From Flavobacteriaceae bacterium (GTDB taxonomy: Bacteria; Bacteroidota; Bacteroidia; Flavobacteriales; Flavobacteriaceae), in contig JAKITD010000004.1 in NCBI GenBank assembly GCA_021648265.1, forward strand, positions 24,350 to 88,349: DNA of 64,000 nucleotides, read 5' to 3'. A program made the translations under genes and the position numbers. The notes below the pieces were generated by a model. The model saw nothing but the letters and a program-made list of their open reading frames with translations. It was not told the origin of the DNA and made no database searches. Positions 40,851 to 45,108 of this stretch are shown one piece after another. How positions within the stretch are numbered: position 1 is the first letter of the stretch; every line of letters starts with the position of its first letter.

Positions 40851-43667
40851 TTGAATTTCGACAAACTAGATACCAAAAAACACATCATCATTCAAGGTGC
40901 AAAATTGCATAATTTGAAGAATATTTCTGTAGCCATTCCTAGAAATAAATTAGTGGTAATTACCGGCTTATCTGGAAGTGGAAAATCTAGTCTCGCCTTC
41001 GATACACTCTATGCTGAAGGACAACGAAGGTATGTGGAAAGTTTATCATCTTATGCACGTCAGTTTTTAGGAAGACTCAACAAACCTAAAGTAGATTCAA
41101 TCAAAGGTATTTCACCAGCGATTGCCATTGAACAGAAAGTAAATTCTACCAATCCACGATCGACCGTTGGAACTTCCACCGAAATCTATGATTACCTGAA
41201 ATTATTATTTACAAGAATTGGGAAAACTATTTCACCAATTTCAGGAAAAGAAGTGAAAAAAGATAACATTTCGGATGTAATCAATTACATAAAGCAGTTT
41301 TCTGAAGGCGAAAAACTCCTCCTCCTCGCTCCTATTCAATTAGAAGAAGGAAGAACAATGGAAAACAAATTAATAGCATTAGCACAACAAGGATATGCTC
41401 GTGTTAAGTTTGAAAATACCGTTTTTCGGTTGGATGAATTAAAAGGTAAATCACTTCCGAAGAAAATAGATGTAGTCGTAGATCGTATCATTACCAAAGA
41501 CAATGAAGATTTTTACAATAGATTGGCAGATGCAGTGGAAATGTCATTCTTTGAAGGAAAAGGTAAACTTTATATTGAGAAACTTTCAGGCATCTCTTCC
41601 GAAGCAAATGCGAAGGAATACGAATCAATAAAAGAATTTAATAATCGCTTTGAAGCAGACGGGATTACATTTTTAACTCCCAATGTGCATCTATTCAGTT
41701 TTAATAATCCGTATGGTGCTTGTGAAACTTGCGAAGGTTATGGCGATGTAATTGGTATTGATGATGATTTGGTGATACCTAACACTGCACTTTCCGTTTT
41801 TGAAAATGCCATATTTGCTTGGCGTGGCGAAAGTATGAGTTGGTATCGCGATCAATTGGTGAATTCAGCTTATAAATTTGATTTTCCTATTCATAAACCT
41901 TGGTTTGAGCTTTCCGAAGAGCAAAAACAATTAGTTTGGGACGGAAACAAACATTTTACTGGATTGAATGAGTTTTTTGAGGAACTGACTTCTAAAAGTT
42001 ATAAAATCCAAAATCGAGTGATGCTTTCTCGCTATCGAGGAAAAACAAAATGTAGCACTTGTAAGGGAAAGAGATTACGGATAGAAGCAAGTTATGTTAA
42101 GATTAACGGAACCGCTATTCAGGAATTAGTGGAACTTCCTCTAGAAAAAGCATCCCTATTTTTTAAAAATTTAAAACTTAATAAATACGATCAAGTAATT
42201 GCTAAACGATTATTGATTGAAATTAACAACCGTCTCAAATTCTTAATCGATGTAGGTTTGAGCTATTTAACATTAAACAGAAAGTCAAATACGCTTTCTG
42301 GAGGAGAATCACAACGAATTAATTTAGCAACCTCCTTAGGAAGCAGCTTGGTAGGCTCTATGTATATTCTCGACGAACCTAGTATTGGTTTGCATCCAAA
42401 AGATACTGAACGATTAATTGAAGTATTAAAAAATCTTCGTGATTTAGGAAATACCGTAATCGTTGTCGAACACGATGAAGATATTATGAAAGCTGCCGAT
42501 GAAATTATAGATATAGGTCCAGAGGCGGGAACTTTTGGCGGTGAAGTTGTAGCTTCAGGAAGTTATGAAGATTTATTAAAATCGAATTCCCTTACTGCCA
42601 ACTATTTAAATGGAGTACTTTCAATTGAAGTTCCAAGCAAAAGGAGAACTTCAAAAAATAATATTCAACTTTTTGGTGCCAGACATAACAATCTTAAAAA
42701 TATAGATGTTACTTTCCCTTTAGGTTGTTTTACGGCAATTACGGGAGTTTCAGGAAGTGGAAAAAGCACCTTGGTTAAAAAAATATTATATCCTGCAATG
42801 CTGAAAGAAATTGGAGGCTATGGTGAAAAGCCTGGGCAATTCAGTAAAATTGAAGGAGATTTTTCAAGTTTAAAAAATGTAGAATTTATCAATCAGAATC
42901 CTATTGGGCGTTCAAGTCGTTCTAATCCTGTTACTTACATCAAAGCTTACGATGATATTCGGAATTTGTATGCTCGTCAAAAACTTTCGAACATTCGAGG
43001 GTATAAAGCCAAGCATTTTTCTTTTAATGTAGATGGAGGTCGGTGTGAAAATTGTAAAGGGGAAGGCGAAGTGACTATCGAAATGCAATTTATGGCAGAT
43101 GTCCATTTAGAATGTGATGTTTGTAAAGGAAGGCGTTTTAAAAAGGAAGTACTAGAAATACATTTCAACAAGAAAAGCATTCACGATATTTTAAGTATGA
43201 CAGTTGATGATGCGATTGATTTCTTTAAACTTCACGGAGAAAAGAAAATCACCAATAAACTACAACCGCTTCAAGATGTTGGATTGGGTTATGTTCAATT
43301 AGGACAAAGTTCATCTACCCTTTCTGGTGGTGAAGCACAACGAATTAAATTAGCTTCCTTTTTAGTTAAAGGAAATACTAAAGAAAAAGCCTTATTTATT
43401 TTCGATGAACCAACTACTGGACTTCATTTTCACGATATTAATAAATTACTAGCCTCTTTCTATGCTTTGTTAGATAAAGGACATACCGTAATTGTAGTAG
43501 AACATAATATGGACTTGATAAAATGTGCTGACCATATTATTGATTTAGGATTAGAAGGTGGCGAAAAAGGTGGTAAAGTAATGGCGGAAGGAACTCCGGA
43601 AGAAGTTTCAAAAAGCAAAAAGTCACTAACTGCAAAATACCTTTTAGAGAAATTCATAGTTAAATAA
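40851..43667 (+). CDS. uvrA: Excinuclease ABC subunit A
   Basis: ITGLSGSGKSSLAFDTLYAEGQRRYVESLSSYARQFL, LSGGESQRINLA, ITGVSGSGKSTL; TTG start. Confidence 0.96.
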   Translation: MNFDKLDTKKHIIIQGAKLHNLKNISVAIPRNKLVVITGLSGSGKSSLAFDTLYAEGQRRYVESLSSYARQFLGRLNKPKVDSIKGISPAIAIEQKVNSTNPRSTVGTSTEIYDYLKLLFTRIGKTISPISGKEVKKDNISDVINYIKQFSEGEKLLLLAPIQLEEGRTMENKLIALAQQGYARVKFENTVFRLDELKGKSLPKKIDVVVDRIITKDNEDFYNRLADAVEMSFFEGKGKLYIEKLSGISSEANAKEYESIKEFNNRFEADGITFLTPNVHLFSFNNPYGACETCEGYGDVIGIDDDLVIPNTALSVFENAIFAWRGESMSWYRDQLVNSAYKFDFPIHKPWFELSEEQKQLVWDGNKHFTGLNEFFEELTSKSYKIQNRVMLSRYRGKTKCSTCKGKRLRIEASYVKINGTAIQELVELPLEKASLFFKNLKLNKYDQVIAKRLLIEINNRLKFLIDVGLSYLTLNRKSNTLSGGESQRINLATSLGSSLVGSMYILDEPSIGLHPKDTERLIEVLKNLRDLGNTVIVVEHDEDIMKAADEIIDIGPEAGTFGGEVVASGSYEDLLKSNSLTANYLNGVLSIEVPSKRRTSKNNIQLFGARHNNLKNIDVTFPLGCFTAITGVSGSGKSTLVKKILYPAMLKEIGGYGEKPGQFSKIEGDFSSLKNVEFINQNPIGRSSRSNPVTYIKAYDDIRNLYARQKLSNIRGYKAKHFSFNVDGGRCENCKGEGEVTIEMQFMADVHLECDVCKGRRFKKEVLEIHFNKKSIHDILSMTVDDAIDFFKLHGEKKITNKLQPLQDVGLGYVQLGQSSSTLSGGEAQRIKLASFLVKGNTKEKALFIFDEPTTGLHFHDINKLLASFYALLDKGHTVIVVEHNMDLIKCADHIIDLGLEGGEKGGKVMAEGTPEEVSKSKKSLTAKYLLEKFIVK

Positions 43668-43695
43668 ATCATAAACCAGCAGAAATATATTTTTA

Positions 43696-43711
43696 TGGCA
43701 CGGTGATTGCA
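43696..43711 (+). promoter_or_regulatory. Sigma-54 -24/-12 promoter TGGCACG-GTGA-TTGCA
   Basis: Exact match to the TGGCACG-N4-TTGCW consensus. Confidence 0.75.
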
Positions 43712-43721
43712 AACTGTATTT

Positions 43722-43814
43722 CCGTAAAGTAATAAGTTATACTTTCATATAAAGTTTTGGTTGGTTAGTTTTTAAAATCCGTTTTCAGATTTATTCTGAA
43801 GGCGGTTTTTTTAG
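43722..43814 (+). ncRNA. Candidate sigma-54-dependent small RNA of about 90 nt
   Basis: Consensus sigma-54 promoter upstream; hairpin AAATCCGTTTTCAG..CTGAAGGCGGTTTTTTT downstream; no substantial ORF. Confidence 0.45.
43776..43814 (+). terminator. Rho-independent terminator
   Basis: AAATCCGTTTTCAG..CTGAAGGCGG-TTTTTTT. Confidence 0.75.
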
Positions 43815-43891
43815 TTTTACAAATTATTTTCAGAAATCAACTAATTTTCAATTCACCTCTAAAGCACCGTATATATTGCCTTTATAATTTA

Positions 43892-43907
43892 TGGCACAAT
43901 CATTGAT
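43892..43907 (+). promoter_or_regulatory. Second sigma-54-like promoter TGGCACA-ATCA-TTGAT
   Basis: Intact -24 element, degenerate -12; 50 bp before the 43957 start. Confidence 0.5.
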
Positions 43908-43956
43908 ACTGTAACAATGAACAATTAAACGGAATGTTTAACCTAAAATTTGAATT

Positions 43957-45051
43957 ATGAAAAACTCAATCACATTAGCAATCGGAATTTTCTTTATAAG
44001 TATATTTTCAGTAATAGCTTCAGAAGAACAAAACAATAATTACTACGGAAACGGTTATGGGAAATCATACATTTTCACAGAACAAAATGTAGAGTTTTCA
44101 GTATATCCTGATGGACAATTTGATTTTACCTATTTAGGAAACTACAATGGTTCAAGTTCTAGTTTAATAATTAGTTCTCCAAATGTAAACATCAGTTATA
44201 ATTCGGGTTATAATTACGATATGTATGTGCAATATGATGATTATGGAGCGGTAATTCAAGTAGAAGATATTCCAATTTATTATGACGAATTTGGACGAAT
44301 TGCTCAAGCTGGTTCAGTAGAGATTAGGTATTATAATAGTCGTATAGTTCGTGTTGGAGGATTAAACGTTTATTATAACAATTACGGAAATTTTGCCTAC
44401 ACAATGGGCTATATAAATCCATATAATCATTACTATGTTTATAGACCTTGGCACTCTTATTATGTTCGCCCATTTTATGCGAGTTGTGTAGTATATAATT
44501 ATCCTTACAGAAGATATTATCAACCAACACGATATGATTTTAATGTTCATTCTAATTACTATTCTAACAGAGGAAGAAGCAATATTGCTTACACCAACGG
44601 AAGAAGAAGTTTTAACAACCCAGGAAGTCGTGTTCATTATAAAAACGGAAGAACTGCGGTTAATAAAGAGTATAAATCTAATAGAAGAAATACATCTGTA
44701 GCAACTACTAATTCAAGAAGTGGAAATTCAAGTACTAAAAGAAGTTATTCTTCAAGTAAAAATAACTCGAAAAGCACTAGATATAATGCTTCTTCCAATA
44801 ATTCGAATACTAGAAAAGTATCTTATAGTAGAAGCAATCATACGACAAAACCTGTTCCAAGATCTAATTATAAAAGATCTTCAAACACTACAAAACAAAA
44901 GAAAGCTGTGACAACAAACAAAAGAAACAGCTCGTATAAAAGTAATACTAGAAAAACTGTAGCAACAAACTCCACTAGAAGCAGTTCAAGCAACAGAAAA
45001 ACAAGTACAAATTCTCGAAGTAGCTCTTCAAAACTTAGCAGAGGATTATAA
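43957..45051 (+). CDS. Secreted Y/N-rich protein with a long basic S/R/K/N low-complexity tail
   Basis: Signal peptide; YDEFGRIAQ / YNNYGNF repeats; about 150-aa basic C-terminus. Confidence 0.8.
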   Translation: MKNSITLAIGIFFISIFSVIASEEQNNNYYGNGYGKSYIFTEQNVEFSVYPDGQFDFTYLGNYNGSSSSLIISSPNVNISYNSGYNYDMYVQYDDYGAVIQVEDIPIYYDEFGRIAQAGSVEIRYYNSRIVRVGGLNVYYNNYGNFAYTMGYINPYNHYYVYRPWHSYYVRPFYASCVVYNYPYRRYYQPTRYDFNVHSNYYSNRGRSNIAYTNGRRSFNNPGSRVHYKNGRTAVNKEYKSNRRNTSVATTNSRSGNSSTKRSYSSSKNNSKSTRYNASSNNSNTRKVSYSRSNHTTKPVPRSNYKRSSNTTKQKKAVTTNKRNSSYKSNTRKTVATNSTRSSSSNRKTSTNSRSSSSKLSRGL

Positions 45052-45068
45052 AACTTTGGTTAGTTAGT

Positions 45069-45108
45069 TTTGAAACCCTCGTTAGACAATATGTTTATCG
45101 AGGGTTTT
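45069..45108. terminator. Terminator between convergent genes
   Basis: AAACCCTCG..CGAGGGTTTT. Confidence 0.75.

Follow-up and report, generated by a model that had tools for sequence, protein, structure and literature searches.

A candidate sigma-54-controlled noncoding RNA gene with a conserved core, next to an exported-protein gene in Flavobacteriaceae

The candidate RNA gene and its neighbourhood

The interval between uvrA and a gene of an exported protein in a Flavobacteriaceae bacterium quite probably contains a sigma-54-controlled noncoding RNA gene outside Rfam, whose product most likely acts in trans via a short conserved core. The gene occupies positions 43696-43812 of the window, that is, of the whole 64,000-nt stretch that was analysed (assembly GCA_021648265.1, contig JAKITD010000004.1, positions 24,350-88,349 of the forward strand). 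Judging from sequence comparison, we have little doubt that there is a real gene at this locus. The RNA probably represents an undescribed family of regulatory RNAs, since the promoter, the near-invariant core and the terminator recur in many genera of the family. Sigma-54-dependent, terminator-ended small RNAs are a known kind, of which few are known in this phylum. The features of the locus are as follows.

40851-43667, plus strand: uvrA, DNA-repair gene, the conserved upstream neighbour (synteny)
43696-43711, plus strand: P1, exact sigma-54 -24/-12 site TGGCACGGTGATTGCA (motif, conservation)
43721-43812, plus strand: predicted noncoding RNA of about 92 nt (start placed by the usual distance from -12 to +1)
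43726-43745, plus strand: possible weak 5' hairpin AAAGTA...TACTTT (from sequence; weak in the window's own fold)
43755-43773, plus strand: conserved core TTTTGGTTGGTTAGTTTTT (mean identity 0.91 in the genus, near-invariant across genera)
43774-43812, plus strand: intrinsic terminator (stem 43779-43805, T-run 43806-43812)
43892-43907, plus strand: P2, sigma-54-like site TGGCACAATCATTGAT before gene X (TGGCACGGTCGTTGGT in relatives)
43957-45051, plus strand: gene X, exported Tyr/Asn/Arg-rich protein of unknown function, 364 aa
45054-45108, plus strand: 3' UTR of X with core-like CTTTGGTTAGTTAGTTTT and terminator CCCTCG...CGAGGG

The uvrA-X neighbourhood is also present in an F. psychrophilum genome. 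Together with T9SS-type genes and the base composition of the window's genome, it suggests membership of Flavobacteriaceae. The C-terminus of the window UvrA (43640-43667) reads KFIVK* and resembles the tail of T9SS type-A sorting domains. In a sister genome (L004/L075) a gene with a KFIVK*-like tail lies between uvrA and the RNA, and a remnant of it is seen in L013; the last codons of the window uvrA seem to have been gained by deletion.

The candidate promoter P1

An exact match to TGGCACGN4TTGCW at 43696-43711, reported in an earlier note made from the sequence of this region, was reproduced with no mismatches. When up to two mismatches are allowed, the window contains seven such sites against 3.8 expected, and thus only the exact match at P1 is remarkable. 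P1 is also the sole occurrence of TGGCACN5TTGCW in the bacterium's own genome, the 2.83-Mb draft G000, the reversed control yielding none. It has GG at -24, GC at -12 and the fixed spacing of sigma-54 promoters (TGGCAC-N5-TTGC), and it is conserved in relatives. G000 encodes RpoN (one match, E = 8e-52). Sigma-54 control of the candidate RNA is very likely.

The loose pattern TGGCAYN5TTG shows no excess in G000 (34 sites vs 32 in the reversed control), and therefore most of its matches there are due to chance. A broad sigma-54 regulon defined in G000 by this pattern was rejected on the same counts. In F. psychrophilum DSM 3660 (G439) the pattern occurs at 57 sites vs 19 in the reversed control, a threefold difference. 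The sigma-54 regulon is perhaps smaller in G000 than in F. psychrophilum.

Structure and conservation of the RNA

The predicted transcription start is at about 43721, 12 nt past the GC of the -12 element, and the predicted transcript extends to 43812. The earlier note had described a hairpin with a T-run after P1 and a terminator-ended candidate sRNA of about 90 nt with no real ORF. Both descriptions agree with what was found: the stem and the T-run were located as listed above, the predicted length is about 92 nt, and no small ORF within the RNA is conserved among relatives. A coding small ORF was rejected on the latter ground. The Rfam search produced no match at the gathering score and chance-level matches only, at E up to 10.

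The window RNA has a folding z-score of -3.95, and none of 200 dinucleotide shuffles is as stable; most of the stability comes from the terminator. The prediction also shows weak pairs between the 5' part and some of the core. In a set of 36 folded RNA sequences the mean z-score is -4.1, and the core is more often unpaired (0.61) than the RNA overall (0.41). The 5' part forms at many loci a hairpin of unrelated sequence, with z-scores down to -6 and a mean of -1.6.

The unit was traced by a DNA search with the region 43650-43960 and then by a covariance model, R1, built from 15 sequences with the helix of the terminator only and with the promoter columns included. The pairing of the -24 with the -12 element suggested by RNAalifold was obtained because the promoter was included; it was rejected as an artefact and left out of the model. 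P1 followed by some 92 nt and the terminator is strong in 15 of the 19 genomes of the genus; in the other four there is nothing (three genomes) or weak matches only (one genome). The footprint, defined as the mean majority identity over 12 genus mates, is 0.88 at P1 and 0.97 at P2. Within the RNA it is 0.71 in the 5' part, 0.91 in the core and 0.80 in the terminator, and it falls to 0.59 in the 79-bp spacer between the terminator and P2. These values thus delineate two conserved units that are set apart by unconserved DNA.

Full-length matches of R1 with promoter, core and terminator were found in many genera among 400 evenly drawn genomes of the family. Weak matches at the family level, with E near 1e-3, were not counted as members; many of them are plain terminators preceded by a GGTTAGTT-like lead. 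Among 395 genomes drawn across the class, only G000 passes the threshold of 1e-5 with R1. Thus, within the reach of R1, the RNA seems limited to part of the family. The earlier note had made its proposal depend on conservation beyond this strain, and the promoter, the core and the terminator are indeed conserved across the genus and in many genera.

The note had also suggested looking for covariation in relatives, which proved to be strong in the terminator. Across the 46 aligned matches, 96.5% of the terminator cells are paired and all 14 pairs are changed on both sides, and neither any of 500 shuffles nor any slid version is comparable; this alignment was fitted to R1, which favours structure, and the contrast with the shuffles is nevertheless large. 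The stem letters differ fully between loci, and TTGGTTGGTTAG hardly varies. The segment UUGGUUGGUUAG ahead of the terminator is near-invariant, and the core GGTTGGTTAG recurs across many genera. The promoter, the core, the covarying terminator, the lack of an ORF and the synteny are all read directly from the sequences.

Gene X and its upstream regions

The promoter is part of R1, and its conservation among the R1 matches is therefore partly built in. For this reason 70 upstream regions were chosen by protein X alone. A sigma-54 site lies 48-100 nt before the start codon of X in 69 of these regions, and in 67 of them it fits the strict pattern, the reversed controls giving 3 and 2 (strict) and the shuffles 0.2. 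This makes X a candidate for nearly universal membership in the sigma-54 regulon of flavobacteria. Its homologues are present in 314 of the 400 family genomes, and the protein has no Pfam match. A second sigma-54-like site at 43892 had been noted earlier. It stands, as P2: in the window TGGCACAATCATTGAT has two mismatches, and relatives carry TGGCACGGTCGTTGGT at this position.

The core was observed in 31 of the 70 regions. In 29 of these 31 the strict site TGGCAYN5TTG precedes it by 20-140 nt, against none expected from shuffles; of the other two, L319 has a site with one mismatch and in L355 the site is at the edge of the tested interval.

In some genomes (e.g. L114, L116, L121) the X leader after P2 contains conserved GTACTNAGCTGACCAAAAAA...AAAGCAAGTACAACC with a possible stem GTACT/AGTAC. 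This conserved leader was lost in the clade of the window.

The candidate RNA lies on the same strand as X, 150 bp upstream, and has the same sigma factor, and one could imagine that it is an attenuated leader of X, with transcription from P1 reading through the terminator under some condition. However, a conserved sigma-54 site precedes X itself in 67-69 of 70 genomes, the spacer between the terminator and P2 is not conserved, and the RNA is kept without an adjacent X in two sister genomes (L010/L082 and L011/L084). We regard an attenuated leader as very improbable.

Candidate core-bearing RNAs at other loci

Sigma-54 RNAs with the same core and a terminator were found at other loci in other genera. 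In L106, L112 and L126, for instance, a hydrolase-like gene is on one side and a band-7 gene on the other; a band-7 gene also follows the RNA of L102. The neighbour is a dipeptidase-like gene in L104 and L113, and a lipA-like gene in L118 and L123. The names hydrolase, dipeptidase and lipA were assigned by reading the sequences rather than by a search. A second syntenic site (L102, L106, L109, L112, L126) mostly adjoins band-7/SPFH and hydrolase-like genes, and in L109 there are two core-bearing RNA copies in tandem.

G000 contains a second core-bearing, terminator-ended RNA candidate at C92:20556-20646 (L093 1501-1591). It has a sigma-A-type box TATATTTG, precedes a convergent rluF-like gene, is conserved in two genus mates (L098, L086) and can be aligned with an RNA candidate of F. 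psychrophilum DSM 3660 (L154, at G439:C45:38597-38708). The 3' UTRs of X and of a small number of further genes carry the core as well, directly before the terminator, and it could be a general element of 3' ends.

Possible origin from a paralogue of X

The earlier note had pointed to the similarity between GTTTTGGTTGGTTAGTTTTTAAAATCC (43754-43780) and the sequence after X, CTTTGGTTAGTTAGTTTTGAAACCC (approximately 45054-45078). R1 indeed matches this 3' UTR (E = 0.007). The further suggestion, that the unit is a duplicate with a deleted body, gains support from relatives in which a gene, X1, lies where the RNA would be and has the same promoter-like site, core and terminator at its 3' end. X1 is a paralogue of X with about 30% identity and was found in some ten genomes (L323, L325, L329, L331, L334, L337, L340, L341, L344, L347). 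It usually has its own upstream sigma-54-like site. At the position of P1 the coding end of X1 has WH[DE]DW or one of its variants, encoded by TGGCACGATGATTGG or a close version of it, and the core and terminator known from the RNA usually follow after the stop codon. Given these relatives, a duplicated unit that lost its body and retained the sigma-54 site would be the most economical account of the RNA gene. Loss of X1, rather than its gain, would then be the direction of change.

A sigma-54 consensus lies inside the coding end of X1 approximately 80-130 nt before the core (L337, L323, L325, L329, L331, L334, L341, L344, L347). CAC encodes the histidine of the site in 9 of 10 X1 genes, compared with 61 of 133 histidine codons elsewhere in these genes (p = 0.005, only indicative as the sequences are related).

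The same genomes could be read in another way, the unit being a decaying remnant of X1: P1 would then be left over from the WHDDW codons, the terminator would serve uvrA or nothing, and the RNA would be a by-product. In favour of this, some ten genomes do have X1 where the RNA would be, with the site within the coding end of X1, and apparent traces of the X1 3' end were seen in RNAs of genomes without X1 (L327 and L338: FWHEDW, and runs of RRK or RKRK ahead of the core). However, after the loss of X1 the letters typical of sigma-54 promoters, TGGCAC and TTG, stayed fixed, whereas the five letters between them changed and WHDDW was lost. Besides, conservation at P1 and in the core far exceeds that of the adjacent spacer, and the same type of RNA occurs at unrelated loci. 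We consider a mere remnant quite unlikely.

Possible function

We infer transcription, sigma-54 dependence and action in trans, and the following scheme is conditional on them. An enhancer-binding activator would switch on RNA polymerase with sigma-54 at P1, and transcription would start near 43721 and stop near 43812. The product would consist of a variable 5' part, the near-invariant UUUUGGUUGGUUAGUUUUU and the strong terminator hairpin, and would share its sigma factor with the adjacent gene of the exported protein X. Action in trans would be the most likely mode, and a trans-regulatory role is fairly likely. One possibility is base pairing of the core with sites of the AACCAACC type in mRNAs for surface or secreted proteins; another is that the core holds an RNA-binding protein.

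In G000 the 9-mer TAACCAACC, the complement of the core, is not enriched just upstream of start codons or in 5' UTRs, and the core as a seed for 5'-UTR targets in this genome was rejected for lack of such enrichment. For pairing of the core with the X leader, 22 related pairs give a mean z-score of -0.87; the window has -0.18, and some pairs go down to -3.4. Such pairing is no better than in shuffles in the clade of the window and is suggestive in some genera. As G000 shows neither a preference of the 9-mer for 5' UTRs nor pairing with the X leader that is better than in shuffles, we regard pairing and protein holding as about equally probable, with the core as the likely active part.

A variant of protein binding is that the RNA is a decoy or scaffold: GGUUGGUUAG would be a protein-binding site that also marks the 3' ends of some mRNAs, and the RNA would titrate the protein or be stabilised by it. 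The identical position of the core just 5' of the terminator in some 3' UTRs, that of X among them, and the missing enrichment of complementary 5'-UTR sites in G000 are consistent with such a role. We know of no flavobacterial binder of GGUUGGUUAG. In Bacteroides the RRM protein RbpB binds single-stranded parts of sRNAs (PMC11697453). However, the reported RbpB motif, cited in PMC12119571 as GUAGGAUA, differs from the core, and the core as the known RbpB motif was rejected accordingly. The decoy or scaffold is a possibility that we put appreciably below an even chance.

Relation to known RNAs

Several sigma-54-dependent sRNAs are known in proteobacteria, such as Qrr, GlmY/GlmZ and CrcZ, which are linked to Hfq or Crc. 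The RNA of the window resembles them as a short terminator-ended RNA with a -24/-12 promoter, but has no sequence relation to them (no Rfam match).

FopS/GibS of Bacteroides thetaiotaomicron (PMC11697453) are similar in being encoded at multiple loci and in combining a conserved single-stranded element with an intrinsic terminator; they are held by the RRM protein RbpB (PMC11697453). However, their conserved element is at the 5' end, their promoters are not sigma-54 promoters, and there is no similarity at the Rfam level.

In the transcriptome of F. psychrophilum, sigma-54 promoters were mapped for chaperones, Lon, gliding genes and exported proteins of unknown function (PMC9723704). One putative RNA, Rfp36, has a mapped start of the sigma-54 type (PMC9723704, Table 2A). 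It is likewise a short flavobacterial RNA with a -24/-12 promoter, and its co-expression cluster includes exported proteins and gliding genes. Rfp36 was compared with the RNA of the window by locus and description. The uvrA-X interval of F. psychrophilum DSM 3660 contains no such RNA; instead, there is a sigma-54 site before an X1-like gene. Nor does this genome have a noncoding TGGCAYN5TTG site ahead of a GGTTGG or GGTTAGTT core, and an identification of the window RNA with Rfp36 was not adopted.

The RNA candidate of F. psychrophilum DSM 3660 mentioned above (L154) is short and has hairpins, the core GGTTGGTTAA and a terminator. It differs from the RNA of the window in having a sigma-A-like promoter, TACTTTTG, and another locus, about 4 kb from two adjacent T9SS metalloprotease genes. 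The 106-bp gap between these genes contains TTAACCAACC, a perfect complement of GGTTGGTTAA, 16 nt before the second start codon. In the same species Rfp18 is a trans-acting sRNA for metalloprotease mRNAs. Its pairing is predicted for the fpp2-fpp1 gap of 107 bp and was placed in the third stem-loop, and the level of fpp1 mRNA falls when Rfp18 is deleted (all PMC9723704). By these descriptions L154 may be Rfp18, and the metalloprotease pair may be fpp2-fpp1. The fit is imperfect with regard to the third stem-loop.

Implications

On a wider view, family-wide sigma-54 RNAs sharing GGUUGGUUAG might form the post-transcriptional arm of the flavobacterial envelope-stress/gliding regulon. At the uvrA-X locus the RNA gene would have been born from the end of X1, with a promoter that doubled as WHDDW codons and outlived the gene. 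We offer this tentatively, as somewhat short of an even chance.

Regulatory RNAs are little explored in flavobacteria, which are major polymer degraders and include fish pathogens. An RNA made of promoter, core and terminator, found over many genera beside X with its near-universal sigma-54 site, is a concrete and easily deleted target. It opens the question of whether sRNAs and 3' UTRs of the family share GGUUGGUUAG as a handle, and that of how an RNA gene may arise from the end of a protein gene.
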